Positions 44,918 to 63,613 of a stretch of DNA of 64,000 nt are shown piece by piece. This DNA is from Fodinibius sediminis (GTDB lineage: Bacteria > Bacteroidota > Rhodothermia > Balneolales > Balneolaceae), in assembly GCF_900182555.1 (NCBI RefSeq), contig NZ_FXTH01000008.1, positions 124,001 to 188,000 on the forward strand, read 5' to 3'. The translations under genes were made by a program, and so were the position numbers. The notes under the pieces were generated by a model that saw only the letters and a program-made list of their open reading frames with translations, was not told where the DNA came from and searched no databases. Numbering within the stretch: position 1 is the first letter of the stretch; each line of letters begins with the position of its first letter.

Positions 44918-45991
44918 ATGGGTTTACTTATTTTTTATTTGTTACTTGCCATCGGGGTTTCTTTTCTTTGCTCAATGTTAGAGGCCGTGCTGCTATCGGT
45001 AAGCCATTCGTATGTGGCCATCATGGAGCGTAAAGGGAGCAGGACAGGCAAGTTGCTGCGCGGCTACAAGGAGGATATAGACCGCCCGCTTTCAGCTATT
45101 TTGAGCTTAAATACCATCGCGCATACGGTGGGTGCAGCCGGCGTGGGCGCCCAGGCACAGATTATCTTTGGCGAAGGGTATGTCGCAGCGACTTCGGCCG
45201 TTCTAACACTGCTTATCCTGGTGCTGTCAGAAATAATACCGAAAACCATTGGAGCGACATACTGGCGAAAATTGGCTCCGTTTACGGCCAAGACGCTGAA
45301 TTTGCTGATGATCCTGCTTTACCCCTTTGTGCTGATATCCCAAGCTATCACCCGCTGGTTATCAGATGAAGACTCTCCGAGCTTCAGCCGGGAAGAATTC
45401 GGTGCTTTGGCGGATCTGGGAGTAGAGGAGGGGGTATTTGAAGAGAAGGAATCCCGCATTTTTAAAAACCTTATCCGTTTCAGCTCCCTGCGTGTGAAGG
45501 ATATTATGACTCCCCGGACGGTTGTTGTTGGGTTCAATGAAAACCGTACAGTGGCAGAGGTTAGCGAGAATGTGGAGCAGCTTCATTTTTCCAGACTGCC
45601 GGTCTATGGTGAGGCCCGTGATGAAGTTACAGGCTATGTGCTGAAAAACGATTTACTGCTGATGATGGCACGCAGTGAATTGTCGATGCCGCTCAAGAAA
45701 TTCAAGCGGGATATCCTGATTGTACCTGAAATGATGCCGCTCCAGGATTTCTTCGAACGGCTTATGCGCAAACAGGAGCACATCGCTCTGGCCGTGGATG
45801 AATATGGGGGATTCGCGGGCGTGGTTACCATGGAAGACCTGGTGGAAACCCTGCTTGGGATGGAAATCATTGACGAAGTGGATACTATTGAGGATATGCA
45901 GAAGATGGCCCGCAAAAAATGGATGGAGCGGGCCCGGCGACTGGGAATTGTAGACCCCGCTGAACAGGCACCTGCCGAGGGCGAGTCGTAA
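44918..45991 (+). CDS. CNNM/DUF21 and CBS-domain protein (hemolysin/CorC-like)
   Basis: Inner-membrane protein of 357 residues. Residues 1-175 are the DUF21/CNNM transmembrane domain ('SFLCSMLEAVLLSVSHSYVA' near 15-34, 'ILVLSEIIPKTIGATYW' near 99-115), followed by a CBS pair ('VKDIMTPRTVVVGFNENRTV' near 193-212, 'EYGGFAGVVTMEDLVETLLG' near 294-313). The C-terminal CorC/HlyC domain of longer relatives is not apparent, the chain ending soon after the second CBS. CNNM relatives handle Mg2+ or other divalent cations. Its TAA abuts the lysC stop with no gap. Confidence 0.9.
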   Translation: MGLLIFYLLLAIGVSFLCSMLEAVLLSVSHSYVAIMERKGSRTGKLLRGYKEDIDRPLSAILSLNTIAHTVGAAGVGAQAQIIFGEGYVAATSAVLTLLILVLSEIIPKTIGATYWRKLAPFTAKTLNLLMILLYPFVLISQAITRWLSDEDSPSFSREEFGALADLGVEEGVFEEKESRIFKNLIRFSSLRVKDIMTPRTVVVGFNENRTVAEVSENVEQLHFSRLPVYGEARDEVTGYVLKNDLLLMMARSELSMPLKKFKRDILIVPEMMPLQDFFERLMRKQEHIALAVDEYGGFAGVVTMEDLVETLLGMEIIDEVDTIEDMQKMARKKWMERARRLGIVDPAEQAPAEGES

Positions 45992-47751: not shown

Positions 47752-50700
47752 ATGAATTTATTGGATAGCATTAGGAATCTACGGGAAATAGTGTCTAAGT
47801 TTGTTTTTGCAGGTGTACTGTTAGGGTTTGCCGGCTGTGCAGGTGATAAACCGACGCCCCGTTTTGAAAATATAAGTGCGGATCAAAGCAACCTCTCATT
47901 CACAAACCGGGTGGAACAGACCCCGGATTTCAATATTGTCAACTACCTCTATTTTTATGACGGCGGCGGGGTATCGATAGGAGATGTCAATGGGGATGGA
48001 CGGCCCGATATCTATTTAACTGCTAATATGGGAACCAACAGGCTGTATCTGAATGAAGGCAATTTTAAATTCCGGGATATCACCGAGCGGGCCGGGGTGG
48101 GAGGATCCGGAGACTGGACAACCGGCACGACCATGGCCGACATCAACGGGGATGGACTGCTTGACATCTATGTGTCCAATGTGCACTACAGGACCAAAAA
48201 GGGGCGCAATCAGCTCTTCATCAATAACGGGGACTCCACTTTTACGGAAAAAGCAGAGGAGTACGGTCTTGCGTTCAGGGGCTATTCCAAACAGGCTGCA
48301 TTTTTTGATATGGACCGGGATGGCGATTTGGATATGTACCTTGTGAATCATTCGGTGCATAACAAGGATACATTTAAGCCCCGTGACCAGCAGCAGTCCG
48401 CCAGCCCCAAAGCGGGAGATCGCCTCTACCGCAATGACGGGGAAACATTTACGGATGTCACCGAAGAGGCTGGTATCCACAACACGGCCCTGGGGTACGG
48501 GCTGGACCTCGCGGTCAGTGATTTGAACGGCGACCATTACCCCGACCTTTATATAACCAATGACTTTCATGAAAATGATTATTTATACCTGAACCAGGGG
48601 GATGGCACGTTTCGCGACGTGCTGCCGCAGAGCACGGGCCATACCAGCCGGGCATCCATGGGCAGTGATATAGCGGATATCAATAATGACCTCAGGCCCG
48701 ATATAGCCGTTGTGGATATGCTGCCATACACGGAGGAAGGGCTGAAAACAGCGATAAGCAGTGAGCCTTATGAATTGTATTCCATTCAGCGTGACTACGG
48801 TTACCATCCGCAGCTCATACGGAATACGTTGCAGCTGAACCTGTTTCAGGACAGCAGTGCCGTCCCATTTTTTGCTGATATTGCCCCCATGGCCGGCGTT
48901 CAGGCTACCGACTGGAGCTGGTCGGCTCTGCTTTTTGACATGAATAATGATGGTTCAAAAGACCTGTATGTTTCAAATGGCATTTATCGACGACCCAACA
49001 ACATGGATTATCTGGCCATGGTAAAAAGAGATGAGATGCAGCAATCATTGAAAGGGGGGATGACGGAAGAGAATATCTCGGTGATTGACAGCATGCCTCA
49101 GCTTAAAATTCCAAACAGGGCGTATCAAAATGAGGATGCTTTTTATTTTTCAGATAAGACGGAAGAATGGGGGCTGGACATCCCCAGCTATTCGAACGGA
49201 GCAGCCTATGGGGATTTAGATAATGACGGTGATCTTGATATTGTTGTTAATAACATTAATTCGGAGGCTGCTTTATACCGGAATTTGACAAGGGAACAGG
49301 ATAGCAGCAGTTACCTGGCACTGAAGCTCGAGGGAGAGGGCCCCAACACCAGGGGAGTAGGCAGCAAAGCCATAGTGTACGCCGGGGAGAGGCGACAGGT
49401 CGCAGAGCTTTTTCCTTCCCGAGGGTATCAGTCTTCGGTTGATCCGCGTCTTTTTTTCGGTCTGGGAGAGGCCAATCATGCAGACAGTCTTGTCATCATT
49501 TGGCCTGCCGGAAAAAAAACGTTTATGAAGGAGGTGCCGGCCAACCAACAACTTACTGTTGTTGAGCAGGAGGCCGGAAACGAAGTTATTGAACAGCAGG
49601 ACGATCCGAAGCCGCTGAAGAAAAGGAGTACCCCATTGCCTGCTAAATTCCGGCACCGCGAAAATGATTTTGATGAATTCAAGGTACAGCCGTTTATGCC
49701 TTATCAGCTGTCAGCAATGGGTCCTCCCCTGGCCGTGGCTGATGTCAACGGGGACGGGATGCAGGATCTTTACGTAGGCGGTGCGGCCCGGCAGGCCGGA
49801 GCTCTTTTTTTGCAGGGAGAAGCAGGGCATTTCGAGTACGGGGAGAACACCACTTTCCAAAAGCACGCCCTGGGCGAAGATGTAGCTGCTGCTTTTTTTG
49901 ATGCAGACGGTGATGGCCATCCGGACCTGTATACCGCAAGCGGGGGCGACGAACGAAGCAGAGATGACGGACGTCTTGCCGACCGGCTGTATTTTAATGA
50001 CGGAGAGGGCAACTTTTCACCTGCTGCTTCGGGGGCTCTTCCGGAAGTTAGTGCTAATGGGTCAGTGGTGGTACCGATAGACTTCAACAGCGACGGCCGG
50101 ATGGACCTGTTTGTCGGCAGTCGCTCTGTCCCCGGCAGCTATGGCGAAATACCTTCTCAGTATTTGCTCGAAAACCAGGGGGATGGAACATTCAGGGATG
50201 TAACGTCGACGGTCAGTCCTGCCCTGCGCTCTATCGGTATGGTCAGTGCGGCCGGAAAAGCGGATATAACCGGAGACGGCCGGATGGAGCTGGTCGTGGC
50301 GGGAGACTGGATGCCGGTGACCGTATTCCAGGCGAAGGATGGCAAGCTTGAACGGTATGAATCCTTTAAATCTCCTGCTGGTCTGTGGCAGAGCCTCCAC
50401 ATGGCCGATGTGGACGGGGACGGTGATGTTGATATACTGGCGGGCAACATGGGGCTGAATACCCCATTTGACGTTTCGGAAACCGAGCCTTTGGTAATGT
50501 ATGCTGCTGATTTTACCGGGCAGGGCAATGCTGATCCAATTATCGGCTATACCAGAGAGAACAAGGTATTTCCGGTGGCCCCCAGGGATCGGTTGCTGAA
50601 GTCTATCGGTATTTTACGCAACCGCTTTCCGACGTACGAATCCTATGCTAATAAGTCACTGACTGATATTTTTGGAGAACAACAACTGCAGCGTGTACTT

Positions 50701-51087
50701 CACAGGAGGGTCACAAGCCTGGCTTCTGTCTATTTTGAAAATACAGGCAATGGCACCTTCAAAATACATTCGCTCCCGGCGGCGATGCAGTCTGCACCTA
50801 TTTTTGCATTTTATACAGGCGATCTGAATCAGGATGGTCGTTCTGATATAGTAGCGGGCGGCAACTTATACGATGTTCGTCCTGTCTTTGGCGGCCGTTA
50901 TGATGCCAGTTACGGATGGTTTTTGGCGGGCAGACCGGGAGGCATATCGGGCTCTTCGCCGGTCAGCCTGAGGATCAGAGGTGAAATAAGGGATATCGAA
51001 GGAATTTCAGCCGGGCAGGGTTTCTCTTCTGTTGTAGTAGGGATTAATGACAAGGCGCCACTCTTTTTGCAGCCGGCCCGGAAGTAA
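47752..51087 (+). CDS. VCBS/FG-GAP repeat lipoprotein with ASPIC/UnbV domain
   Basis: Large surface lipoprotein, 1111 residues from ATG 47752, chosen because it gives a proper lipoprotein signal ('LLGFAGC', Cys28) and has AAAGGA upstream; an ATG at 47698 would add 18 non-signal residues. It holds two beta-propeller-type regions of FG-GAP/VCBS repeats with Ca-binding 'DVNGDGRPDIY' and 'DINGDGLLDIY'-type loops, separated near residues 530-600 by an ASPIC/UnbV segment ('RGVGSKAIVYAGERRQ', 'LVIIWPAGKK'). Such proteins are regular partners of SusC/SusD pairs and probably bind glycans or other ligands outside the cell. First gene of the locus. Confidence 0.9.
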   Translation: MNLLDSIRNLREIVSKFVFAGVLLGFAGCAGDKPTPRFENISADQSNLSFTNRVEQTPDFNIVNYLYFYDGGGVSIGDVNGDGRPDIYLTANMGTNRLYLNEGNFKFRDITERAGVGGSGDWTTGTTMADINGDGLLDIYVSNVHYRTKKGRNQLFINNGDSTFTEKAEEYGLAFRGYSKQAAFFDMDRDGDLDMYLVNHSVHNKDTFKPRDQQQSASPKAGDRLYRNDGETFTDVTEEAGIHNTALGYGLDLAVSDLNGDHYPDLYITNDFHENDYLYLNQGDGTFRDVLPQSTGHTSRASMGSDIADINNDLRPDIAVVDMLPYTEEGLKTAISSEPYELYSIQRDYGYHPQLIRNTLQLNLFQDSSAVPFFADIAPMAGVQATDWSWSALLFDMNNDGSKDLYVSNGIYRRPNNMDYLAMVKRDEMQQSLKGGMTEENISVIDSMPQLKIPNRAYQNEDAFYFSDKTEEWGLDIPSYSNGAAYGDLDNDGDLDIVVNNINSEAALYRNLTREQDSSSYLALKLEGEGPNTRGVGSKAIVYAGERRQVAELFPSRGYQSSVDPRLFFGLGEANHADSLVIIWPAGKKTFMKEVPANQQLTVVEQEAGNEVIEQQDDPKPLKKRSTPLPAKFRHRENDFDEFKVQPFMPYQLSAMGPPLAVADVNGDGMQDLYVGGAARQAGALFLQGEAGHFEYGENTTFQKHALGEDVAAAFFDADGDGHPDLYTASGGDERSRDDGRLADRLYFNDGEGNFSPAASGALPEVSANGSVVVPIDFNSDGRMDLFVGSRSVPGSYGEIPSQYLLENQGDGTFRDVTSTVSPALRSIGMVSAAGKADITGDGRMELVVAGDWMPVTVFQAKDGKLERYESFKSPAGLWQSLHMADVDGDGDVDILAGNMGLNTPFDVSETEPLVMYAADFTGQGNADPIIGYTRENKVFPVAPRDRLLKSIGILRNRFPTYESYANKSLTDIFGEQQLQRVLHRRVTSLASVYFENTGNGTFKIHSLPAAMQSAPIFAFYTGDLNQDGRSDIVAGGNLYDVRPVFGGRYDASYGWFLAGRPGGISGSSPVSLRIRGEIRDIEGISAGQGFSSVVVGINDKAPLFLQPARK

Positions 51088-51563
51088 TGCGCACAGAATT
51101 TGTACTTAATTTTCTAATTTCATCCGTTCGGCAGGGGACTGGGACATTATTGCCGGGGTTGTATGCAGGGGCACCGTGAGGATCTATGAAAATAATTTCA
51201 CACTGATATCTACCTTTTGTTCATTGTATGCGGTTTTTTGGGGGTGTGGGGAGGTCTTATTAAAATACAGATGAAAAAAAATTTTTTCTTCTCAGGATTT
51301 TTTTAAAAAAATTTGGGGGTATGCAATTTTCAGAGCGTCTATTACAACGGAAAGATGGTGAGAAGGATATGATTAGGATTAGTTTTTGCTTTCCAAGGAC
51401 ATTGGTTTTGTTATCGTATTCATAGCAGTTTGTGGATTGAATCCAATCCATTATCTATTGCAGTCAGCAAATAGGTACGGAGAAGAACTGTTGTGTTCTC
51501 ACCTTTCAATTCCTTAAAGGCGAAATAAAGTAAATTCATAATGTTCAATTAACTCAATTTAAT
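51088..51563. other. 476-bp A/T-tract region upstream of susC
   Basis: No gene. It holds two long A/T tracts 23 bases apart: A8T6 at 51274-51287 (the curved AnTn form) and the 16-bp palindrome ATTTTTTTAAAAAAAT at 51297-51312. These are likely promoter-region elements for susC; a GGATT-G-AATCC inverted repeat (51434-51444) lies downstream. I cannot place the transcription start. Confidence 0.45.
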
Positions 51564-54500
51564 ATGAAGTTATATTCCTCAAATAAATGGATAGCATTGT
51601 TGGTTGTATTTTCAGGATTGGTTTTCTGTAGTACATTTTCTGCAACGGCTCAGGACATAGAAGTGAGTGGTACGGTGATTGATGCTACGACTGATCAAAC
51701 CCTGCCCGGTGTTAATATTGCGGTGCAGGGAACGAGCAGGGGTACGGCCACCGACGCCGATGGTAACTATTCTATTGAAGTTCCGAGTGATGCGACCCTG
51801 GTATTTACCTTTATCGGTTATGCCGAGCAGGTGGTACCGGTTAACGGGCGCCAGGAAATTAATGTGGCACTGGAACCCGGCGTCAACCAGCTGGGTGAAG
51901 TTGTGGCTGTGGGCTACGCAACGCAGGAGGCCGGAGAGGTTACGGGCTCCATATCTTCTGTCAGCTCGGAAGACCTGGAAGATGTAAGCGTTGTTAATAC
52001 CTCTTCAGCGCTAAAAGGAGCCGTTTCCGGTGTTACTGCTGTGGAATCCAGTACGCCCGGTGAAGGAGCCAGTATTCGTATTCGCGGCCTGACTACTATT
52101 AATGACAATGAACCCTTGTGGGTGGTTGATGGGGTGCCCGGTGCTCCGGTAAACCCTGAAAATATTGAATCCATTTCCATTTTAAAGGATGCGGCTTCCC
52201 AGGCTATTTACGGGGCCCGTGCTTCTAACGGGGTTGTGCTTGTAACCACAAAGAGCGGAAGAAAGGATCAACCTGTTCAGGTCAATGTGAAGGTAAGGAA
52301 CGGTATCACCCAAAACGCCAACAGCTATAATCTGCTGAATACCCAGGAATATGGGGAAATGCTTTGGCTGCAGGCTAAGAATGACGGAAATGATCCTGTG
52401 CACCCGCAGTATGGCAGTGGTGATGAGCCTGCAATTCCTGATTACATCCTGCCGGCGGGTACCAATGGCGAGGTCGATGAGAGTCTGTACGATCGCCAGA
52501 TGGTCCACCAGGATGGAGATGATACGTTTATCATCATGCGCGCCAACAAGCAGGGTACCGACTGGATGGACGAGATTGAACGTAATGCCGTCTACCAGGA
52601 ATACAGCGTGGGACTGAATGGAGGAAGCGAGACGACAAATTATGCATTCCAGGCCGGATACCTGAAGGAAGAAGGTATCTTAAAGTACACCGGCTACAAC
52701 CGGTACAACCTGCGCTCCAATGTCAGTGTTGACGTCAATGACTGGCTGAGCGTCGGTGAAAAAGTGGGACTGACCTACAGCGAAGACTACGGAAATCAGT
52801 CGAACAACAACGAGGCAACCGTAATTTCCCATACCTACCGGATGCAGCCCATTGTACCGGTGTACGATATCAAAGGAGCGTATGCAGGAACCCGGGCATC
52901 CAACACGGGGAACGGTACAAACCCGCTGTGGTCTCTTGATATGAACCAGCATGACCAGACCAATGGCCTTAACCTCAGTGGAAACGCATTTGCCGAGGCC
53001 GATATTTTAGAAAATTTGTCTTTCAAATCGCTGGTCGGTTTTAACTACAACACCGCGGATGTCAGGAACTATAGTTATGTTGAAGTAGCTTTCGCTGAAA
53101 GGGGTAAGTATGACGGCCTTGGGGAATTTGCGTCCTTCAGCACGCAGTGGAACTGGACAAATACCCTGAACTATTCGAAAACATTTGCGGACGTCCATGA
53201 TATTACCCTGATGGCAGGAACCGAGGCGATACAGAACAACTATCGCTGGCGAAACGGATCTCGGGAAAATTTCTTCTCGCGTGATCCCCTCTACATGCAG
53301 CTTAACTCCGGGGTGCAAAACCAGATAAACGGGGGTAATGAAAGCCAGTGGAACCTGTTCTCCATGTTCAGCCGTGTAAACTACGCCTATGATCAAAAGT
53401 ATCTGCTGGAAGCAGTTGTGCGTCGCGACGGCTCTTCTCGCTTTGGCGAAGAAAATCGCTATGGTACGTTCCCGGCGTTTTCAGCGGCCTGGCGAATAAC
53501 CAACGAGGAGTTCATGTCTTCCACCGAAAACTGGCTGGACTATTTGATGGTGCGCGTAGGATACGGTATGACCGGTAACGACCGCATAGGAAATTACAAC
53601 TCCTACACCACCTATGCGTCGAGCCAGTCGAATTCCTTTTACCCCATAGCGGGAGCCAATATCGGCCCGGGGAGTTCGGGATTCTATCGTGCCAGCCTTG
53701 GCAATGACAACGTGCAGTGGGAGATTACCACTACCACCAACATCGGTATTGATGCTACAATCTTCAGCAACTGGGATCTGAGCGTTGACCTCTGGAACAG
53801 GGTGACAAGCGATATGCTGTACCCGCAGCGGATACCCGACGTTCTGGGTCAGGCTGCTGCTCCGTCCATCAACGTGGGCGAGATGGAGAATAACGGTATC
53901 GATGTGGAAGTGGGATACAATGGTACTGCCATGGACGAGGAACTGCAATATGGCATCAGCCTGAACGTCTCCCATTACAAGAACAAGGTCAATCGTCTCT
54001 CCTCAGACGCCAACGAGTTCATGGAGGGATCCTCGTTCCGTCAAATGAATTATACACGTGCGGAAACGGGAACACAGTTCCCCGAATTCTACGGCTACGT
54101 GATTGAAGGGATCTTCCAGACACAGGAGGAGGCTGACAATCATCCGGCGGCATTCGGAGAAGGGGGCGATTACAACGAACCCGGCCGCTTCAAGTATAAA
54201 GACGTCAATGGGGACGGGGTCATTACGGCGGATGACCGTACCTATATCGGCGACCCCCACCCGCTCTTTACTTCGGGACTTAATCTCAACATGAGCTACA
54301 AAGGCTTCCGGGCCTCTACCCGTTTCTATACCAGCTATGGAAACGACATGGTTAACTACGTGAGACGATGGATTGACTTTAACCAGTTCCAGGGGAACCG
54401 AAGCGAGCGGCGACTCTATGAATCCTGGGGAAGTCCTTACCTGGCTAACAATGCAAATGCGACCATGCCCAAGGCGGAAGGCAATGATACCGACAGTCAA

Positions 54501-54761
54501 TACCCCTCTACCTATTTTATGGAGGATGCTTCCTACCTGCGCATGGAGCAGCTGCACCTGAGCTACGACCTGAATTCCATCCTGAATGTTCAGAATGTCA
54601 GGAACCTGCGGCTGTATATCCAGGCAAATAATCTCTTTACGATAACCAATTATTCCGGACTGGATCCGGAAGTTAATGCCGGAGGAATCAACCGGGGCAT
54701 CGACCGTGGTGCATGGCCTACAAGCAGGCGATTGATGTTCGGAGTAGACATCGGCTTGTGA
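51564..54761 (+). CDS. SusC/RagA-type TonB-linked outer-membrane protein
   Basis: TonB-dependent importer barrel, 1065 residues. Signal peptide cleaved after Ala29; then a carboxypeptidase-regulatory-like domain (about 31-115, 'SGTVIDATTDQTLPGVNIAV'), the plug with the SusC signature ('IRIRGLTTINDNEPLWVVDG' near 173-192, 'ILKDAASQAIYGARASNGVV' near 209-228), and a barrel ending in 'RLMFGVDIGL'. There is no N-terminal STN signalling domain, so it should not transmit a signal to an anti-sigma factor. Paired with susD 61 bases downstream; imports a large ligand delivered by SusD. Confidence 0.96.
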   Translation: MKLYSSNKWIALLVVFSGLVFCSTFSATAQDIEVSGTVIDATTDQTLPGVNIAVQGTSRGTATDADGNYSIEVPSDATLVFTFIGYAEQVVPVNGRQEINVALEPGVNQLGEVVAVGYATQEAGEVTGSISSVSSEDLEDVSVVNTSSALKGAVSGVTAVESSTPGEGASIRIRGLTTINDNEPLWVVDGVPGAPVNPENIESISILKDAASQAIYGARASNGVVLVTTKSGRKDQPVQVNVKVRNGITQNANSYNLLNTQEYGEMLWLQAKNDGNDPVHPQYGSGDEPAIPDYILPAGTNGEVDESLYDRQMVHQDGDDTFIIMRANKQGTDWMDEIERNAVYQEYSVGLNGGSETTNYAFQAGYLKEEGILKYTGYNRYNLRSNVSVDVNDWLSVGEKVGLTYSEDYGNQSNNNEATVISHTYRMQPIVPVYDIKGAYAGTRASNTGNGTNPLWSLDMNQHDQTNGLNLSGNAFAEADILENLSFKSLVGFNYNTADVRNYSYVEVAFAERGKYDGLGEFASFSTQWNWTNTLNYSKTFADVHDITLMAGTEAIQNNYRWRNGSRENFFSRDPLYMQLNSGVQNQINGGNESQWNLFSMFSRVNYAYDQKYLLEAVVRRDGSSRFGEENRYGTFPAFSAAWRITNEEFMSSTENWLDYLMVRVGYGMTGNDRIGNYNSYTTYASSQSNSFYPIAGANIGPGSSGFYRASLGNDNVQWEITTTTNIGIDATIFSNWDLSVDLWNRVTSDMLYPQRIPDVLGQAAAPSINVGEMENNGIDVEVGYNGTAMDEELQYGISLNVSHYKNKVNRLSSDANEFMEGSSFRQMNYTRAETGTQFPEFYGYVIEGIFQTQEEADNHPAAFGEGGDYNEPGRFKYKDVNGDGVITADDRTYIGDPHPLFTSGLNLNMSYKGFRASTRFYTSYGNDMVNYVRRWIDFNQFQGNRSERRLYESWGSPYLANNANATMPKAEGNDTDSQYPSTYFMEDASYLRMEQLHLSYDLNSILNVQNVRNLRLYIQANNLFTITNYSGLDPEVNAGGINRGIDRGAWPTSRRLMFGVDIGL

Positions 54762-54796
54762 TCACCAAAACCGAAAGATATTATTTGAACGCAGCC

Positions 54797-54816
54797 AATT
54801 TTAAAAATTTAAAATT
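54797..54816. repeat. A/T-only inverted repeat before susD
   Basis: AATTTTAAA and TTTAAAATT are exact complements separated by AA, ending six bases before the susD ATG. As RNA it would be a weak AU hairpin over the ribosome-binding region; the AT-rich context also suits initiation in this phylum. Confidence 0.4.
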
Positions 54817-54822
54817 TAAGTT

Positions 54823-56589
54823 ATGAAGTTAATAAGAATAAGAAAGCTGGTTTTACTGACAACCTTAATGGGATTTGTCGCTTTCCTGAATTCATGCAAG
54901 GACAACTTCCTGGTCAACGAGCCGCCGGGGTCGGCTTCTGAATCGGTGATGTCAACCTCCACCGGCGTTGAGAGCCTTTTAATCGGGGCCTATGACATGC
55001 TCAATGGTAATGGGTACTTCGGGGGAGCCATGGCTACCGACTGGACCTACGGATCCGGGGCTTCTGATGATACCTATAAAGGGACCACCTTTGGCGACCA
55101 GAGCTCATTCAACCAGGTGGAGCGGTACAATACCAATCCCGCCAACCCGTACATGGCAGAGCGGTGGAGAGATACCTACAATGGGGTCTCACGGGCCAAT
55201 GACGTGCTGACAAACCTGTGGAAGGCCCAGGAAAGCAATGATCCTATAGCAGAAGACCGGGCAAATGAAATCGAAGGGGAGGCCAAGTTTTTGAGAGCCT
55301 GGTACCACTTCAAGGCAACTCTGGTGTTCGAGAAAATTCCCTATATAAAGACGGCGGAAGAGCTGGGCGATGTAGCACCTGAAAAAGTGCCCAACGATTC
55401 TGAAGGCTGGGAAGGCATTGAAGCCGATCTGCAGTTCGCTATTGACAACCTGCCCGAGGACTCCCCAAAGGGACAACCCGGGCGTGCTGACAAATGGGCG
55501 GCTGTGGCACTCAAGGCCAAAGCGCACATGTACCAGAATGAGTTTGACAAGGCCAAGCCGCTGCTCGATCAGATCATTGACAGTGGACAGTTCGAACTGG
55601 TTGACAACTATTTCGACAATTACCGGCAGGATACGGAGAATAATGTAGAATCCATCTTTGAAATCCAGGCATCGGTGCAAACGGGTGTTGAGAATAATAT
55701 CATTATGGCAGGGCCCGCTTCGCACCAAAAGGGACCGGCCGGTGTGGGCTGGGGCTTCTTTCAGCCTTCGCAGGACCTTTTCGAAGCTTTCCAGACGACC
55801 GAAGACGGATTACCGGTACTTGACAAGGAGGATCGCGACCCGCTGGCCAATGATATGAATATGGGGAGTGATGAAGAATTCGTGCCGACGGACCACGAAC
55901 TTGATCCACGCGTTGACTGGACTATTGCCCGCCGTGGGGTCGATTACCTCGGATGGGGTATACACCCGGGCGAAGCCTGGATCCGTGCCCAGAGCAACGG
56001 CGGACCCTACATGACAAAGAAGTTCTTCTACCTGCAGGAGTTCAGCGACAATACAGCGGATGGTGGGTTTGATAATCCCCGGAACTTCCGGGCCCTGCGA
56101 TATGGCCATGTACTGCTGTGGCGAGCGGAAATTGCGGTTGAAGACGGTAACCTGGGATATGCCCGCGAACTGGTGAATATGATCCGTAGCAGGGCTAAAA
56201 ACAGCGATTATGTCATGGGGCGTGTCACGGATTACACCCTCGACTCTCAGCCTGCGGAGGAAGATATAAACTGGGATGAACCTGCTGCAAACTATGAAAT
56301 TGAACCGTATCCTGTGGGTTCCGCCGCTTTTTCATCGCAGGAAAATGCACGAAAGGCCGTCCGTCTGGAACATCGTCTGGAGTTTGCAACAGAAGGGCTG
56401 CGCTTCTTCCAGCTCCGGCGCTGGGGCATTGCGGATCAGGTGCTGAACGACTATATCCAGAGGGATAGTCAGTTCCGAACCTTCATGCAGGGGGCCAGCT
56501 TCGATCCGCAACGGGATGACTACTGGCCCATTCCGCAAAGTCAGATCGATATCCAGAGTGATGTCCTGACACAAGATGAATCCTACTAA
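54823..56589 (+). CDS. SusD/RagB-family nutrient-binding lipoprotein
   Basis: Surface lipoprotein that lids the SusC barrel and binds ligand. 588 residues; signal with lipobox 'FLNSC'. The N-terminal TPR-like part has 'YDMLNGNGYFGGAMATDWTY' near 52-71 and 'DVLTNLWKAQ'; 'AKFLRAWYHFKATLVFEKIP' near 152-171 is the strongest SusD hallmark. C-terminal 'VRLEHRLEFATEGLRFFQLR' near 513-532 and 'PIPQSQIDIQ' complete the RagB/SusD pattern. Partner of the preceding SusC. Followed by a very stable hairpin. Confidence 0.95.
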   Translation: MKLIRIRKLVLLTTLMGFVAFLNSCKDNFLVNEPPGSASESVMSTSTGVESLLIGAYDMLNGNGYFGGAMATDWTYGSGASDDTYKGTTFGDQSSFNQVERYNTNPANPYMAERWRDTYNGVSRANDVLTNLWKAQESNDPIAEDRANEIEGEAKFLRAWYHFKATLVFEKIPYIKTAEELGDVAPEKVPNDSEGWEGIEADLQFAIDNLPEDSPKGQPGRADKWAAVALKAKAHMYQNEFDKAKPLLDQIIDSGQFELVDNYFDNYRQDTENNVESIFEIQASVQTGVENNIIMAGPASHQKGPAGVGWGFFQPSQDLFEAFQTTEDGLPVLDKEDRDPLANDMNMGSDEEFVPTDHELDPRVDWTIARRGVDYLGWGIHPGEAWIRAQSNGGPYMTKKFFYLQEFSDNTADGGFDNPRNFRALRYGHVLLWRAEIAVEDGNLGYARELVNMIRSRAKNSDYVMGRVTDYTLDSQPAEEDINWDEPAANYEIEPYPVGSAAFSSQENARKAVRLEHRLEFATEGLRFFQLRRWGIADQVLNDYIQRDSQFRTFMQGASFDPQRDDYWPIPQSQIDIQSDVLTQDESY

Positions 56590-56601
56590 TAACCGCTAAC
56601 A

Positions 56602-56654
56602 ACTTTGCAGCTTTCCTCCCCCCGTGATATATAGGGGGAGGAGACTTGCAAAGT
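56602..56654 (+). repeat. Very stable stem-loop after susD
   Basis: ACTTTGCA (56602-56609) pairs with TGCAAAGT (56647-56654); TCCTCCCCC (56614-56622) with GGGGGAGGA (56634-56642). The four bases between them also pair apart from one C-C mismatch, giving about 20 pairs in a 21-position stem, with an 11-base loop. No T-run follows, so it is more likely an mRNA-stabilising or attenuating element than a classical terminator. It starts 12 bases after the susD stop, 20 bases before the next start. Confidence 0.8.
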
Positions 56655-56673
56655 GTGGCTAATGCACTGATGC

Positions 56674-58083
56674 ATGTCTGATTCTGATAAATCTGCACGA
56701 CGTTCTTTTCTAAAAAAAATTGGTATCGCCACTGCTGGAATCTTCAGCACGCCTTTTATTTTCGGAAGCCGTAAGCATCCCCCCAACGCAGTTGTACTGG
56801 AACCGGGCGCTGATTCAAATCGATCGCAATCCTATTCCCGGAACGATCAGATTCAGCTTGCCCTGATTGGGGCCGGAAAAATGGGACAGGGCAATCTTCG
56901 GGTAGCACTTGAACACGAGGGCGTTGAGCTGGTGGCAGCCTGCGACCTGTATGACAGCCGTCTGAATAGATGCAGGGAACGCTTCGGCAACCATGTTGAC
57001 ACCACCACCGACTATCGTGAGATATTGACCCGTGAGGATGTAGATGCGGTTGTTATTGCGACCCCGGATCACTGGCATAATACTATAGCTGTAGATGCCC
57101 TGAACAGTGGCAAGGCTGTCTATCTTGAAAAGCCGATGGTCCAGCATATCGAGGAAGGCTATGGGATCATTGAAGCGGCTGAGGAGAATTCGCAGCCGGT
57201 CATTGTCGGCAGTACGTCTACCAGTGACATTGTCTACCGGAAAGCCCGGGAGTTGTATAGAAATGGGCAGATAGGGGAGCTGAATCTGGTGGAGTCTCAC
57301 TATGACCGCTATTCCGCGATGGGTGCATGGCAGTACTCCATTCCGCCCGGCGCATCTACGGATAACGTTGACTGGGATATGTTCCTGAAGGATCTTCCTG
57401 AGATCCCGTTTGATCCCAAGCGATTTTTCAGATGGAGAAATTACCGTGATTATGGTACTGGCGTGGCCGGAGATCTTTTTGTACACTTGTTTTCGGGTAT
57501 TCACCTGGTTACCGGTTCAAAAGGCCCCGAACGGATCATGTCTACAGGCGGACTCCGATTCTGGAATGATGGGAGAGACGTACCGGATATGATGACCGGG
57601 ATGTACGATTACCCGGAGACGGAATCGCATCCGGCTTTTAATTTAACACTGCGGGTTAACCTTGCCGATGGATCGGGAGGTGGCCGGATGATGCGTTTTG
57701 TAGGATCAGAAGGCGAGATAACTATAGCCGGCGACCAGGTCACATTGAAAAAGGCCAGGCTTCCCGACCGCCCGGGCATGAGTATTTACGAATTCGGATC
57801 AGAGGTCCGTGAAGAATACAGGGAATATTATGAGGAGAAATATGGCAAGGAACAGCGTCCGACGGCAACACAGACGGAAGTTGTTACCTACAAGGCCCCG
57901 GAGGGCTACAGCTCGCGCTACGATCATTTTGACAATTTTTTCAGGGCCATCCGCAACGGTACAAAGCTGATCCAGGATGCCCGATTTGGTTTGCGGGCGG
58001 CTGCACCGGCACTGGCCAGTAACCTGAGTTATTTCCAGAATGAGATGATCAACTGGGATCCGGAGGCGATGCAGCTTGTCTGA
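56674..58083 (+). CDS. Tat-exported Gfo/Idh/MocA-family oxidoreductase
   Basis: NAD(P)-binding sugar-type oxidoreductase of 469 residues with a twin-arginine signal ('ARRSFLKKIG', residues 8-17), so folded with cofactor before export to the periplasm. Rossmann loop 'ALIGAGKMGQG' near 63-73, 'VVIATPDHWHNTIAVDAL' near 127-144 and the family 'YLEKPM' near 150-155 carrying the catalytic-site Lys. Members of this exported class act on glycosides or oxidised sugars. It sits between susD and a PIG-L deacetylase, which suggests periplasmic processing of the imported ligand. Substrate unknown. Confidence 0.92.
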   Translation: MSDSDKSARRSFLKKIGIATAGIFSTPFIFGSRKHPPNAVVLEPGADSNRSQSYSRNDQIQLALIGAGKMGQGNLRVALEHEGVELVAACDLYDSRLNRCRERFGNHVDTTTDYREILTREDVDAVVIATPDHWHNTIAVDALNSGKAVYLEKPMVQHIEEGYGIIEAAEENSQPVIVGSTSTSDIVYRKARELYRNGQIGELNLVESHYDRYSAMGAWQYSIPPGASTDNVDWDMFLKDLPEIPFDPKRFFRWRNYRDYGTGVAGDLFVHLFSGIHLVTGSKGPERIMSTGGLRFWNDGRDVPDMMTGMYDYPETESHPAFNLTLRVNLADGSGGGRMMRFVGSEGEITIAGDQVTLKKARLPDRPGMSIYEFGSEVREEYREYYEEKYGKEQRPTATQTEVVTYKAPEGYSSRYDHFDNFFRAIRNGTKLIQDARFGLRAAAPALASNLSYFQNEMINWDPEAMQLV

Positions 58084-58183
58084 ATTCAGTGCTGCAACAG
58101 ATGATTGAGTACGGAGACCGGTTTTTTATGAAAGGATGGACTTACTGTAATTATTAATAATAACAATCGTAAAACAATTTAAT

Positions 58184-59065
58184 ATGATGAGAGAAATAAA
58201 AAACATACTTGTGCTGACGCTGCTGGTGGGGCTTGTAAGCTCTCCGGCTTTTGCACAACCGGAAACCCCGGTTAGTGAATGGACCGGAAAAACGATTCTG
58301 CTTGTGGGTGCTCATCCCGATGACGACTCCAACTCATACGGCACGCTTTCCATGCTGCAGGAGAACGGGAATGAAGTCTATGTATTGTTGATGACGACGG
58401 GCAATGTGGGGACAAAAGACCCGGATATGACCCGCGATCGCCTGGCCAAGATCAGGCGTGGAGAAGAACTGCGTGCATTAAATGAGATTGGAATTCCGGA
58501 AGAAAACTATATCAACCTCGGCTACAATGATGGTATGCTTGAATTTACCGATCGCAAAGAGGTGGTGCGTCGTCTTGTCAAATGGTACAGAAAACTAAAA
58601 CCTGATGTGCTGTTTGCCTTTGATCCGGGTTACGGATACCAGAAATGGCTGAAAGCCGACCACCGGCGCGCTTCCTATTTAGCTGTGGATGCTGCACGAG
58701 CTGCGGAATGGCGGTTGATCTTCCCCGGCCAGATTACTCAGGATGGCCTGGAGAAGCACTGGATCCAGGAATACATGTTTTACAGCGGGGTGGAGGAGGA
58801 TAAAAATACTTGGGTAGACATCTCTGGCAAGCATGCCGACAGGAAATTCAATGCGGTATCAAAACATGTCAGCCAGTTTAGCTCGGCGTGGGAAGACTAT
58901 AATGGTTCCAATCTGGAGGCGGAGGATCTTCCGACGGAAGATCGGAATGAATTTTTGGACAAGATGCGCAGCCGGGTATATGACAATAAGAAAGATGGGA
59001 CGACGGTCGAAGGATTCAGGTATTACAAAGGCATACCCGATGGCATTGGGCATCGTCGTCATTAA
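58184..59065 (+). CDS. Periplasmic PIG-L/LmbE-family deacetylase
   Basis: Zinc-dependent de-N-acetylase family, 293 residues with a signal peptide cleaved near 'AFA-QPE' (residue 24). The zinc/catalytic motif is 'LLVGAHPDDDSNSYGTL' near 39-55 with His44 and Asp47; the more common Glu after the Asp pair is Asp48. A downstream His160 in 'KADHRRASY' is the third ligand. PIG-L enzymes deacetylate GlcNAc-type substrates, consistent with an N-acetylated sugar as the target here. ATG 58187 is an alternative start. Confidence 0.9.
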   Translation: MMREIKNILVLTLLVGLVSSPAFAQPETPVSEWTGKTILLVGAHPDDDSNSYGTLSMLQENGNEVYVLLMTTGNVGTKDPDMTRDRLAKIRRGEELRALNEIGIPEENYINLGYNDGMLEFTDRKEVVRRLVKWYRKLKPDVLFAFDPGYGYQKWLKADHRRASYLAVDAARAAEWRLIFPGQITQDGLEKHWIQEYMFYSGVEEDKNTWVDISGKHADRKFNAVSKHVSQFSSAWEDYNGSNLEAEDLPTEDRNEFLDKMRSRVYDNKKDGTTVEGFRYYKGIPDGIGHRRH

Positions 59066-59153
59066 CAGACGTACCATGGGCCGCAACGTGCTATACGGGC
59101 AGGCATGAGAAGGCGCCAGGCAGAGATGATGGCATTTTGAAATGAATTCTTAT

Positions 59154-59167
59154 TGTTAACATTAACA
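59154..59167. promoter_or_regulatory. Inverted/direct repeat before the ECF sigma gene
   Basis: TGTTAA-CA-TTAACA is a perfect inverted repeat and, read another way, a tandem TTAACA. It ends 11 bases before the sigma factor ATG, a position where a repressor or the sigma factor itself could act. Role inferred. Confidence 0.35.
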
Positions 59168-59178
59168 GATGAGAATAT

Positions 59179-59739
59179 ATGAATTCAGAAGAGGAACAGA
59201 GGGTAAGGGAAATTCGAAATGGAAATGAGGAAGCCTTTGAAGAACTGTTTTTTGAGTACTATGCCTCTTTGTGCGGCTATGCCTTGAAAATTTTAAAATC
59301 ACGGGATCTGGCGCGTGATGCTGTACAGGAAGTTTTCCTGAAAATATGGAGAAATCGTGCGAGCTGGAATATATACCGCTCGCTGAAAGTATATCTTTAC
59401 CAGGCTGTGAGGAATAAATCGCTTGATTTGCTCGAGAAAAAGAACCGACAGCAAAACCTTACCAAAGAATTGTCTGAACAGGCGTTAAACAGTCTGACAA
59501 AGCAGAAGATCGAGCAGCAGAAAAAATATGAACAGTCTGATGATGTGCTGCAACTCATCGAGGCCATATGGGATATTGCGGAAGAGATGCCCGAACGACG
59601 AAAGACAGTCTTCATCCTGCACCGTCGTAATGGACTCAGCTACAAAGAGATAGGTGATGTCATGGGTATTACCCGGAAAACAGTTGAAAACCATATGGCC
59701 CTTGCGCTCCAGACGATACGGGAAGAAATCAATTATTAA
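59179..59739 (+). CDS. RNA polymerase ECF sigma factor
   Basis: Extracytoplasmic-function sigma factor, 186 residues. Region 2 is 'AFEELFFEYYASLCGYALKI' near 17-36 with 'RDLARDAVQEVFLKIWRNRA' near 42-61; region 4 is 'LSYKEIGDVMGITRKTVENH' near 154-173, a helix-turn-helix for the -35 element. It lies within the SusCD locus and just before a short FecR-like anti-sigma gene, so it likely drives part of this locus. The region is more A/T-rich than the flanks. Confidence 0.93.
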   Translation: MNSEEEQRVREIRNGNEEAFEELFFEYYASLCGYALKILKSRDLARDAVQEVFLKIWRNRASWNIYRSLKVYLYQAVRNKSLDLLEKKNRQQNLTKELSEQALNSLTKQKIEQQKKYEQSDDVLQLIEAIWDIAEEMPERRKTVFILHRRNGLSYKEIGDVMGITRKTVENHMALALQTIREEINY

Positions 59740-59814
59740 ATATTAATTTATGTAAATAAATATAAATAGGTCAGATATACATTATTTTTTATTGGATATT
59801 TAAAGGTATTAAAT

Positions 59815-60123
59815 ATGATTAATCCTATTTTGATCCTGCGTTATTTGTCGGATGACTGTACTCCGGGGGAAGAAAGCGCAGTTGAACAATGGTTCAGAGG
59901 GGACGGCCGTAATACTTATGTCATGGAAGAGTATCGTACCATATGGGAATTATCAAAAAGTTCAGAAGTGGATTTTAGAAATTTATTTGATGTGGAAATC
60001 GGCTGGCTGGAATTAAGAGAACGTATGTCAGCGAAGTCCGTGCAAATGGACTACGGTAATGTTGAAGAGCGCACTGTTCAGGATGACTTTCCGTTGCGTA
60101 TCCGGCTTTTCCTGGAAGAGTGA
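59815..60123 (+). CDS. Short FecR-N-terminus-like anti-sigma candidate
   Basis: Only 102 residues. 'LILRYLSDDCTPGEESAVEQ' near 6-25 and 'WFRGDGRNTYVMEEYRTIWE' near 26-45 match the N-terminal cytoplasmic domain of FecR-type anti-sigma factors, and 'DVEIGWLELRERM' near 59-71 corresponds to the segment just before the usual membrane helix. The helix and the whole periplasmic FecR domain are missing, and no FecR coding remains downstream in any frame that I can see. Either a truncated anti-sigma or a soluble, purpose-built one. Follows the ECF gene by 75 bases. Confidence 0.75.
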   Translation: MINPILILRYLSDDCTPGEESAVEQWFRGDGRNTYVMEEYRTIWELSKSSEVDFRNLFDVEIGWLELRERMSAKSVQMDYGNVEERTVQDDFPLRIRLFLEE

Positions 60124-60302
60124 GTGTTGTTGTCTGAAACAAAGGATAAATAGCGGTTCCGCCTGCCCATGTTATTTTATCCTGCCGTTAGTTTGAGTAC
60201 GAATTGAATACCATCCAAGACTGAGAAGTTTGTTTTCTGCTGGTTATGATATGCCTGTAGTGGATCACTGTATCGATGATTAGTTAAGAGTACAAAATTA
60301 TT

Positions 60303-61166
60303 ATGGATGATTGCCTGATTGGGATAGATATAGACGCAACGACTATTCGTGTGGCCTGTATACAGGACAATGAAATAGAGAATATGGTATCCGAAGAGAT
60401 ACGGGACAATGAGGATAAGTACCTGATCATCGATCAGATTGCTGTGCTGGTTGACCGCGTGCTTATACCGCAGGTGAGTGGAATCGGGCTGGGAGTGCCG
60501 AGTGTGGTGGATACCCAAAAGGGTATCGTATATGACGTGCAGAATATCCCATCCTGGGAGGAGGTCCCTGTAAAGGCAATTTATGAGAAAAAATTTCAGC
60601 TGCCGGTTTTTGTCAATAATAATGCCAACTGTTTTGTACTTGGTGAAAAGTATTTTGGCAAGGGACAGTCCTTCGACACTGTAGTCGGACTTGTCGTTTG
60701 TGATTCGGGACTGGGAGCCGGAATAATTATTGACGGTATGCTCTATGAAGGCCGGAACTGCGGGGCAGGAGAAGTCGGAATGTTTCCGTATCGCAATTCA
60801 ATTATGGAGCATTATTGTTCGGGCCAGTTTTTCAGCAGAAGAGAGGGAATAACAGCATTGGAAGCCTGTCGGCTGGCCGCAGAAGGGAATGCCCAGATTC
60901 AGGCTCTTTTTGAAGAATTCGGCATTCATTTTGGAATTGCTGTAGAAGCAGTCATCTATGCCTACGATCCGGAAATGATCATCATCGGGGGACCCATCAG
61001 CAGGGCATTTTCTTTTTTCAAGGATACCATGTATTCCTCGCTCGAAAGCTTTGCGTATCAGAATTCACTGAAAAAAATTGCCATCGAAGTGACAGAAGAC
61101 AAGCGAATAACTTTAAAAGGGGCTGCTGCTCTTGTCCTCGAAAATAAATTGAATTGTCAGGTGTAA
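60303..61166 (+). CDS. ROK-family protein with degenerate kinase motifs
   Basis: Sugar kinase/repressor fold, 287 residues, without an N-terminal HTH. Compared with active ROK kinases, the nucleotide loop 'DIGGTK' is 'DIDATT' (9-14), the catalytic Asp of 'ENDANA' is Asn107 ('VNNNANC', codon AAT at 60621), and the zinc motif is absent: the usual His is Met160 ('GEVGM') and the CxCGxxGC block is replaced by 'MEHYCSG'. 'DSGLGAGIIIDG' near 134-145 remains. It may be a sugar sensor rather than a kinase, or use a shifted mechanism. Downstream of the sigma pair and upstream of a sugar transporter. Confidence 0.8.
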   Translation: MDDCLIGIDIDATTIRVACIQDNEIENMVSEEIRDNEDKYLIIDQIAVLVDRVLIPQVSGIGLGVPSVVDTQKGIVYDVQNIPSWEEVPVKAIYEKKFQLPVFVNNNANCFVLGEKYFGKGQSFDTVVGLVVCDSGLGAGIIIDGMLYEGRNCGAGEVGMFPYRNSIMEHYCSGQFFSRREGITALEACRLAAEGNAQIQALFEEFGIHFGIAVEAVIYAYDPEMIIIGGPISRAFSFFKDTMYSSLESFAYQNSLKKIAIEVTEDKRITLKGAAALVLENKLNCQV

Positions 61167-61239
61167 TTAAACGGACGCCTGCTGTCAAGGTCGGCATTCC
61201 CAGATATTGAGGTTCTAACTTTAATTCAATCAACATCAT

Positions 61240-62505
61240 ATGAAACGGAACTATTACCTCGTAGCACTTATTCTACTTACGTTTTTCGTAATTTCCTTTC
61301 TGACCAATATTATTGGTCCGCTTATCCCGGAAATTATTGAAGACTTTGATTTGAGCCTCACCATGGTGGCGGTGTTGCCCTTCTCTTTTTTCATAGCCTA
61401 CGGGGCCATGTCCATTCCGGCTGGATTGCTCATCGAGCGCTATACGGAGAAAAAAATCATGATCAGCGCCTTTCTGGTGGCATTCAGCGGAGCCCTTCTG
61501 TTTGGCCTGTTTCCTGTTTATCTGATCGCGATTGTGTCTCTTTTTCTGATAGGTTCGGGAATGGCGATGCTGCAGGTCGCTATCAATCCGCTGCTTCGTG
61601 AAGCCGGGGGAGAAGAGCATTTTGCCTTCAATTCGCAGCTGGGGCAGCTCTTTTTTGGTTTGGCTTCGTTTCTGAGCCCGCTCGTTTATTCCTATCTGGT
61701 GGTTAATCTGGAGAGTGGCGTTACCGAGGGCATCCTGCTATCGGTACTGGCAGCGATGGTACCTTCCGAATTGCCCTGGATATCACTCTACTGGATTTTT
61801 GCTTTAGTTTCACTGTTGATGGTCATCATCATATCGATTTCCCGTTTTCCGGAAGTGGAGCGGAAGGAGGATGAGAAAGTAGGGGTGCTGGAAACCCTGG
61901 AATTGCTCAAGCGCCCGATGGTCTGGTTTTTCTTCCTGGGTATTTTCTGTTATGTGGGATCCGAACAGGGCGTCGCCAACTGGATTTCCGAGTTTCTCTC
62001 TACCTACCATGGCTATGATCCCCAGACCACCGGAGCCAGTACCGTCTCATGGTTCTGGGGTATGATGACGGCTGGAACAGTGCTGGGACTATTATTATTG
62101 AAGGTCATGGACAGTCGCAGGGTGCTGATTAGCTTTACCACCGGGGCCCTGGTCTGCTTGACCCTGGCTCTGTTCGGAAGCGGATCTACAGCCCTTTATG
62201 CCTTCCCGGCTATTGGTTTTTTGATCGCCGTTATGTGGCCGGTTATCTTTTCACTGGCATTGAATTCAGTGGCCGAAAGCCACGGCTCATTCTCCGGGAT
62301 CCTGGTGACGGGCATTGTTGGAGGAGCCGTTGTACCACTCATTGTGGGCACCCTCGGCGATATGATGGGCCTAAAGTTTGGTATGTTTTTCCTTTATCTC
62401 ACCTTTGGCTATATCCTGAGCATCGGTTTCTGGGCCGAGCCCCTGGTCACCAATAAGACCATTGAATTTTCCACCCAGAAACGTGACAAACAAGAAGTGG
62501 GCTAA
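61240..62505 (+). CDS. MFS sugar transporter (FucP/NagP-like)
   Basis: Inner-membrane symporter of about 12 helices, 421 residues. The sequence 'NIIGPLIPEIIEDFDLSLTM' near 24-43, 'SIPAGLLIERYTEKKIM' near 58-74 and 'NPLLREAGGEE' near 116-126 follows the fucose:H+ / N-acetylglucosamine permease group of Bacteroidota and Gammaproteobacteria. 'MWPVIFSLALNSV' near 331-343 is a further FucP-like segment. Last gene of the locus; it would carry the processed sugar from periplasm to cytosol. Confidence 0.9.
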   Translation: MKRNYYLVALILLTFFVISFLTNIIGPLIPEIIEDFDLSLTMVAVLPFSFFIAYGAMSIPAGLLIERYTEKKIMISAFLVAFSGALLFGLFPVYLIAIVSLFLIGSGMAMLQVAINPLLREAGGEEHFAFNSQLGQLFFGLASFLSPLVYSYLVVNLESGVTEGILLSVLAAMVPSELPWISLYWIFALVSLLMVIIISISRFPEVERKEDEKVGVLETLELLKRPMVWFFFLGIFCYVGSEQGVANWISEFLSTYHGYDPQTTGASTVSWFWGMMTAGTVLGLLLLKVMDSRRVLISFTTGALVCLTLALFGSGSTALYAFPAIGFLIAVMWPVIFSLALNSVAESHGSFSGILVTGIVGGAVVPLIVGTLGDMMGLKFGMFFLYLTFGYILSIGFWAEPLVTNKTIEFSTQKRDKQEVG

Positions 62506-62575: not shown

Positions 62576-63613
62576 CTACAAAGCAAAACGATGTCGGCTG
62601 ATCACCCTGCTGTTTTTATCAAGGAAAGAACGAATTTCACTGATGGGTATGGCCTGAGTAATGCCATAAGCAATCCTGTTTTTTTGCCCAAGAAAGATCT
62701 GGTCAGTATAGGGACGAATGACACCGGCCTGAACATCCTCTTCACTGTCGGGATAAGGGAGCAGAACTGTTTCCTGGGAGGCGGTGGCAGAGCGGGCCAT
62801 GCCAAGCCATTCAAAACTTCTGAAATGGTCTCTGCTGCCGATAACGAGACCGCCGCTAATGCCGGGGTTGAACAGGGCGTCCATGATAAAAAAGCGGTGG
62901 GGGGGATTCCCGCGCGTGCTGGCTATGCCGCGGGTTATCATGGGAAATCCTTTTGGATAGCCCAGCACATATAAAAAGGAACCCAGCCTGAGATGCTCCA
63001 TCTGTCCCATAGGGAAGCGGAGGGCCCGGTGCTGCGACTGGGTATCGGGATTGAGGGTTGTCGACAGGAGAGCGAGGTCCGAGAGCCTGTCTTCGGCAAT
63101 AATTTCGAAATTTGTCAATTCGCTGACGGTGAACAGCAGATTGGTCTGTCTCCTTTTAATACTTATGGATTCGATATAGGTGTTTTGTTCGTAGCCCTCA
63201 TCGATGAAATAATTGATCAAGGTATCCGGAGAGGTAACTGAATGGGCACAGGTGATGAGCAGAGCCTCGCCGTTGTCATTAAGGTCGAGGATGATAGAAG
63301 TGCCCGCTGTACTTTCATCATCGCTGTATTGCTGAGAGGCTATCTCTTTCAGATTGCTTGTTCTCACATCCGACAGACGGACCTCCGGTTTGTCGAAAAC
63401 ATAGGTATTGTAATGAGACGTTGATACAATCCGGATGAGGGACTCCTGTGCGTCCTCAAGCTGATCGGAGATGTCGCGGTGTGGAAAAGCTGTCGTGTAG
63501 GTATCCGGCTGGCCGGTGCGGGCAGCAGAAACGGACGATTCTTGGGGAACGCTACAGGAAGTAACCCACAGGGTTAGGAAAAAAAAGGATGTAAAAGCCA
63601 CGTACTTATCCAT
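62576..63613 (-). CDS. Trypsin-like serine protease lipoprotein
   Basis: Envelope lipoprotein of 345 residues: signal with lipobox 'VTSC' (Cys20). A chymotrypsin-like fold is indicated by His124 in 'LLITCAHSVTS', Asp179 in 'EDRLSDLALLS' and Ser253 in 'NPGISGGLVIG'. The usual GNSGGP around the nucleophile is GISGGL, a modest change that keeps the oxyanion glycine. No PDZ domain. Alone on the minus strand, convergent with the MFS gene. Substrate unknown; degeneration into a non-peptidase cannot be excluded. Confidence 0.8.
   Translation of the reverse strand: MDKYVAFTSFFFLTLWVTSCSVPQESSVSAARTGQPDTYTTAFPHRDISDQLEDAQESLIRIVSTSHYNTYVFDKPEVRLSDVRTSNLKEIASQQYSDDESTAGTSIILDLNDNGEALLITCAHSVTSPDTLINYFIDEGYEQNTYIESISIKRRQTNLLFTVSELTNFEIIAEDRLSDLALLSTTLNPDTQSQHRALRFPMGQMEHLRLGSFLYVLGYPKGFPMITRGIASTRGNPPHRFFIMDALFNPGISGGLVIGSRDHFRSFEWLGMARSATASQETVLLPYPDSEEDVQAGVIRPYTDQIFLGQKNRIAYGITQAIPISEIRSFLDKNSRVISRHRFAL

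Follow-up and report, generated by a model that had tools for sequence, protein, structure and literature searches.

A nine-gene SusCD block

The window analysed here is a 64,000-nucleotide stretch of the genome of the salt-loving bacterium Fodinibius sediminis (4.43-Mb assembly, labelled G000, the one assembly that underlies the findings on this block). ORF calling placed nine intact open reading frames (ORFs) on its + strand at 47752-62505, encoding a VCBS-type lipoprotein, a SusC/SusD pair, a Gfo/Idh/MocA dehydrogenase (hereafter Gfo), a PIG-L deacetylase, an extracytoplasmic function (ECF) sigma factor, a 102-aa protein, a ROK-fold protein and a major facilitator superfamily (MFS) carrier (Table 1). 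An earlier note, made from the letters of this DNA, had given these nine same-strand genes with their order, families and export signals; all ORFs were found at that place and on that strand, and Pfam and NCBIfam scans agreed with the families, except for the 102-aa protein, which reached no family model in either database. The absence of a glycoside hydrolase was likewise borne out: no glycoside hydrolase (GH) or polysaccharide lyase (PL) model of the two databases matched any of the nine proteins, which ruled out a GH/PL domain concealed in the VCBS protein. Thus susC and susD stand side by side on one strand, as in a SusCD utilisation locus, without the glycan-cleaving GH or PL enzyme of such a locus, and the PIG-L enzyme acts on N-acetyl groups, not on glycosidic bonds.

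The VCBS lipoprotein, with 11 FG-GAP/VCBS repeats plus UnbV_ASPIC, is a putative surface glycan-binding beta-propeller and adjoins SusCD repeatedly, in genome G101 (66%, L051) and at loci L068 and L069. Its longest ORF begins at 47698, with 47752 the most likely start, and the 476-bp gap to susC means that it may be a transcription unit of its own. Literature on UnbV/VCBS proteins with SusCD, and on PIG-L in polysaccharide utilisation loci, yielded nothing useful.

Table 1. Genes of the block and its flanks, in window coordinates
Feature	Position	Strand	Evidence
CNNM/CBS protein, left flank	44918..45991	+	89% to F. roseus (L030)
VCBS/FG-GAP lipoprotein, UnbV/ASPIC domain in C-terminal half	47752..51087	+	Pfam FG-GAP_3 1.7e-83, UnbV_ASPIC 1.9e-20
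SusC/RagA TonB-dependent transporter, 1065 aa, no STN domain	51564..54761	+	TIGR04056 858 bits
SusD/RagB lipoprotein	54823..56589	+	Pfam 1.8e-36
Gfo/Idh/MocA dehydrogenase exported by twin-arginine translocation (Tat), putative glycoside 3-dehydrogenase	56674..58083	+	RRSFLKK Tat start; EKP Lys153, GTGxxGDxxxH motif retained
Secreted PIG-L/LmbE-type N-deacetylase (predicted)	58184..59065	+	Pfam 7.9e-25; signal peptide
ECF sigma factor, Bacteroidetes type	59179..59739	+	TIGR02985 146 bits vs cut-off 126
FecR cytoplasmic sigma-binding domain alone, 102 aa	59815..60123	+	similarity to full FecRs of relatives
ROK-fold protein, kinase residues lost, probable pseudokinase	60303..61166	+	D107N, G134D, G11D, N14T
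FucP/GluP/NagP-type MFS sugar carrier	61240..62505	+	TIGR01272 1.9e-41
Trypsin-like lipoprotein, right flank	62576..63613	-	69% to F. roseus (L039)

Dehydrogenase, deacetylase and the 3-ketoglycoside pathway

Published work on related enzymes has shown that i) BT2158 is a periplasmic glycoside 3-dehydrogenase (PMC11300592); ii) DUF1080/PF06439 proteins are linked to 3-ketoglycoside hydrolysis (PMC9007349); iii) DgpA acts with a TIM-barrel protein to cleave C-glycosides (PMC8563793). By profile, the nearest solved relatives of the block Gfo were 8tdf, 8tdh and DgpA (9e-22 for 8tdf), and the top matches of its predicted structure were 8tdi (a glucuronide-3-dehydrogenase) and DgpA1. Together with the gene context and this literature, these matches make 3-oxidation the likely reaction and place the enzyme, as judged from sequence and model, with the glycoside 3-dehydrogenases; similarity does not give its substrate.

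Close Gfo matches were present in 30 of the 92 family genomes searched (own genome counted), and 18 places were inspected (gene calls in relatives came from a simple longest-ORF script, and at contig ends a context counts as a minimum). At six of them a PF06439 3-keto-disaccharide hydrolase gene followed Gfo on the same strand, four of the six continuing with a GMC dehydrogenase and Gluconate_2-dh3, while at four places besides the window Gfo touched this PIG-L. The order in genome G018 (L061) was SusD-Gfo-PF06439-PIG-L, its PIG-L being distant (29%).

The metal site of the PIG-L protein is intact (AHPDD at 43-47, DHR at 159-161), with H44, D46, D47 and H160 invariant in an alignment of nine orthologs, and its nearest solved structures are diacetylchitobiose deacetylases (4e-20). 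A PF06439 gene lay directly downstream of PIG-L orthologs in 12 Bacteroidota loci (five clusters at 85% identity; two of the 12 pairings were checked by Pfam). In the PIG-L tree the window protein clusters with those of F. roseus and G101 (100/100), and the starred branches imply that the pairing with Gfo changed on at least two separate occasions. Within the own genome, a further PIG-L, of the second type, directly adjoins PF06439 genes on contig C4 near 288-290 kb (L002). In Bacteroidales metagenome-assembled genomes (MAGs; L113, L114, L115, L118, L122, L127 and others), PIG-L orthologs lie between a gene like those for zinc-type alcohol dehydrogenases (~345 aa) and a PF06439 gene.

Could Gfo itself cleave as an NAD-dependent glycosidase of the GH109 or GH188 kind, making a separate lyase unneeded? 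The GH188-type 8qc2 is among its fold matches, and the GH109 structures 2ixa and 6t2b match weakly. We consider this very improbable: the 8qc2 match is one of general fold, the GH109 match (~1e-7; 2e-7) covers the Rossmann part only against 9e-22 for 8tdf, full-length similarity to GH109 or GH188 was not found, and members of this Gfo subfamily repeatedly have a dedicated PF06439 hydrolase as their partner. Membership of GH109 was ruled out.

The earlier note had proposed a complete block that cleaves by oxidation and deacetylation alone, with redox-based cleavage replacing hydrolysis. Gene content and export signals fit such a scheme, and the 3-dehydrogenase similarity and the gene pairings above (Gfo-PF06439, Gfo-PIG-L and PIG-L-PF06439) favour its coupling of oxidation to deacetylation. 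Its completeness did not survive, and we give that version scarcely any credence: 3-ketoglycoside systems as described rely on a lyase or hydrolase as a distinct enzyme (PMC9007349, PMC8563793), which the block lacks, while the genome holds 23 PF06439 domains outside the block and a TIM-barrel partner on another contig. Thus the block is not self-sufficient, as it encodes neither a hydrolase nor a lyase that would act on the oxidised sugar, and cleavage could come in trans from these proteins. Nor is redox cleavage itself new, as it belongs to the known 3-ketoglycoside pathway (PMC11300592, PMC9007349); the unusual parts are the added N-deacetylase and the trimmed signalling.

The TIM-barrel partner, on contig C7 (G000:C7:150251-151198), is an ortholog (69%) of a protein encoded beside Gfo and PIG-L in F. 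roseus; one stop was flagged in the aligned stretch, yet a 311-aa ORF is open. Its gene adjoins a run of ECF, FecR, SusC(STN), SusD, GMC, Gluconate_2-dh3 and PF06439 genes, which amounts to a complete LacABC/DUF1080-like oxidative locus (L092, G000:C7:139901-159800). A NagB-PIG-L protein is encoded on contig C20.

Three known systems resemble the block in part. In BT2157-BT2160 of Bacteroides thetaiotaomicron, a periplasmic Gfo-type glycoside 3-dehydrogenase (BT2158) replaces a glycosidase, as the putative 3-dehydrogenase of the block would, and PF06439 proteins like BT2157 adjoin relatives of the block Gfo; the block differs in having an N-deacetylase and SusCD, in lacking the 3-keto hydrolase, and in a Gfo that scores far under the BT2158 cut-off. 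The Caulobacter LacABC and DUF1080 route of lactose oxidation would share periplasmic C3 oxidation followed by splitting, but uses a flavin GMC-type enzyme where the block has an NAD-type Gfo, and no N-deacetylase is described for it; the C7 locus is of this type. DgpA-DgpB/C, a Gfo oxidoreductase with a TIM-barrel partner, resembles the Gfo-PIG-L-TIM run of F. roseus, whereas the window block has no TIM partner and the dgp cluster as described has no deacetylase.

Two conserved gene sets at one chromosomal site

One congener compared was Fodinibius roseus DSM 21986 (G011:C44; L030, L039, L096), whose block shares both the CNNM and the trypsin-like flank with the window (Table 1), so that the two blocks occupy the same chromosomal site. 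The F. roseus order is Gfo (78%), PIG-L (88%), TIM-barrel, MFS (89%), ROK (50%), ECF, full FecR, SusC(STN) and SusD-like_2. At this site the window has another SusCD pair and the VCBS lipoprotein, no TIM-barrel gene and an altered gene order. Its SusCD pair has orthologs on another contig of F. roseus (57-58% for the pair, 59% in the SusD comparison). In G101, VCBS-SusC-SusD faces Gfo-PIGL-TIM, and the SusD ortholog (65%) is interrupted by stop codons; near 654-660 kb of G101:C10 (L050-L051) the susC and susD orthologs are broken and the adjacent Gfo-PIGL-TIM is intact. Two congeners have an MFS carrier in their cognate blocks that is 87-89% identical to that of the window block.

Neighbours of ROK orthologs defined a first gene set: NagB or a NagB-PIG-L fusion, PIG-L, ECF, FecR, SusC, SusD, a second secreted PIG-L, the same MFS and a PcRGLX-type lipoprotein. 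In a genome-wide PIG-L scan it recurred at ~21 loci in Balneolaceae, KSB1, a Caldithrix MAG and Neomarinimicrobiota, and no published description of it was located. From family knowledge, NagB and the NagP/FucP-type carrier would indicate amino sugars. The sole cleavage candidate in this set is the remote PcRGLX-type protein, and a DASS carrier is sometimes included (L098, L099, L100, L103, L108 and others). The second gene set is the pair of Tat-exported Gfo and PIG-L.

The window holds only part of the first set, in changed order: its PIG-L, MFS, ROK, ECF and FecR N-domain are relatives of the set's genes, whereas SusCD is swapped, FecR shortened and ROK catalytically dead, the second PIG-L and the PcRGLX-like protein are lost, and VCBS and Gfo are gained. 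The exact nine-gene composition was found in one genome, so that as a unit it fails the test of conserved co-occurrence among relatives that the earlier note had set, while its sub-modules are conserved elsewhere. The block is best read as a hybrid, particular to its lineage, that joins parts of both conserved gene sets and has its signalling parts trimmed, an unusual variant and not a new kind of pathway.

That PIG-L, MFS, ROK and ECF are all members of the amino-sugar set, most loci of which have no Gfo, suits a simpler account, in which the block serves amino-sugar salvage (deacetylation and MFS import) and Gfo is a passenger or an unrelated-polyol enzyme. We regard this account as unlikely, since Gfo and PIG-L are adjacent at four further places, their pairing has arisen more than once, and each of the two has PF06439 genes beside it elsewhere among the genomes compared.

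A gene elsewhere in the window (29269-34908, - strand) encodes a protein of 1879 aa that combines Ig-like repeats with six Lamin Tail Domains and bears a weak type IX secretion signal of the CHU_C kind.

Trimmed signalling and a model for the block

The short anti-sigma of the earlier note proved to be the cytoplasmic domain of FecR: the 102-aa protein aligns with residues 1-75 (6-75 by the narrower figure) of the relatives' full FecRs (343-370 aa), keeps the three signature Trp (W26, W44, W64) and has neither a transmembrane helix nor a periplasmic FecR domain. A sequencing frameshift was ruled out, as no FecR sequence lies downstream in any frame. Sequence searches of solved structures gave nothing relevant, and Foldseek gave mainly the anti-sigma proteins RsiW and RslA, with non-significant E-values. 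On the transporter side, STN was the top N-terminal match in all seven inspected SusCs encoded beside full-length FecRs, and was absent from the N-terminus of the window SusC and of its F. roseus ortholog. Thus the ECF sigma factor of a cell-surface signalling system is present, and the membrane-anchored FecR and the transporter STN are both absent. Judged by sequence, regulation of the block appears unlike that of every relative seen, with the transmembrane signalling chain apparently lost and the sigma-binding fragment kept.

In Escherichia coli, FecR fragments from 1-59 to 1-116 activate FecI without inducer, and the conserved Trp are required (PMC9249621, PMC8144685). Given this activity, a SusC without STN and a lone FecR fragment lead us to predict inducer-independent expression of the block as the simplest outcome, though the effect could have the opposite sign, as with FpvR, a fragment of which inhibits its sigma instead of activating it (PMC9249621). 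The block shares with FecA-FecI-FecR an ECF sigma beside a FecR-type sigma-binding domain, and differs in lacking the membrane and periplasmic part of FecR and an STN transporter; its naturally occurring 102-aa protein resembles FecR(1-85), a fragment made in the laboratory.

The ROK protein, which the earlier note had rightly called degenerate, carries D107N (the catalytic base), G134D, G11D and N14T at sites invariant in nine close orthologs (ortholog group above ~179 bits, other ROKs at most 83). Where relatives read N-N-D-A/S-N and D-L-G-A/G-T-N, it reads N-N-N-A-N and D-I-D-A-T-T, without the catalytic Asp and the glycine-rich phosphate loops of a ROK kinase, and its AAT codon reads without ambiguity in the assembly. 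It is the only full-length ROK in the genome. Its unique changes fall at 0.17/0.11/0.52 in codon positions 1/2/3, which argues that it is still under coding constraint, although weaker (faster change) than in two congeners; recent neutral decay is thereby disfavoured. By sequence it is a retained, probable pseudokinase.

Might the whole block be decaying, with the short FecR, the dead ROK and the missing partners as relics and only some genes still serving the cell? The truncation of FecR, the loss of ROK catalytic residues and the pseudogenes that are the sister susC and susD in G101 would fit such a course. On the other hand, all nine ORFs are intact, ROK changes are few at codon position 2 relative to position 3 (0.11 vs 0.52), the three FecR Trp are retained, and MFS and PIG-L lose no invariant sites beyond their relatives; decay is thus quite improbable.

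The explanation that we favour, at a probability of about 0.55, is a hybrid block rebuilt in place at the site also used by F. roseus, which would work as follows: i) the VCBS lipoprotein and SusCD would bind an N-acetylated glycoside (of an amino sugar) and take it in, import being assigned by family and the substrate presumed; ii) the periplasmic, Tat-exported Gfo would oxidise the sugar, most likely at C3, as family and context suggest; iii) PIG-L would strip the N-acetyl group; iv) 3-keto-glycoside hydrolases or lyases present elsewhere in the genome (PF06439 proteins, the C7 TIM-barrel partner) would cleave the bond in trans; v) the released sugar, probably glucosamine-like, would be taken up by the MFS carrier and may be metabolised via the NagB-PIG-L protein that C20 encodes; vi) with a SusC unable to signal, a FecR reduced to its sigma-binding fragment and a ROK that is no kinase by its residues, FecR-type induction would not occur.

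Several lines of evidence weigh against this explanation: i) the Gfo model is of moderate confidence only (predicted local distance difference test, pLDDT, 70); ii) Gfo scored 116 bits against the NCBIfam equivalog of the BT2158 family, far below its cut-off of 750; iii) none of the nine genes encodes a 3-keto-glycoside hydrolase or lyase; iv) neither a PcRGLX-like protein nor an intact ROK kinase was found anywhere in the genome, so that the former route in the cytoplasm may no longer work; v) as the FpvR fragment is inhibitory, "always on" could be "always off". A bolder form of the favoured explanation makes this a glycosidase-free N-acetylated-glycoside locus that couples 3-oxidation to N-deacetylation, with the truncated FecR as a permanently released sigma activator and the ROK fold retained, without kinase function, to sense sugar or serve as a scaffold; we find it doubtful.

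Across Bacteroidota and Balneolota, genes of an N-deacetylase family recur in pairs with genes of the 3-ketoglycoside pathway. This links the family to that pathway and suggests that amino-sugar glycosides, too, are subject to oxidative cleavage. Moreover, the block offers a natural experiment on FecR, in which the signalling chain has apparently been lost and a fragment of the kind that activates sigma in E. coli has been kept.

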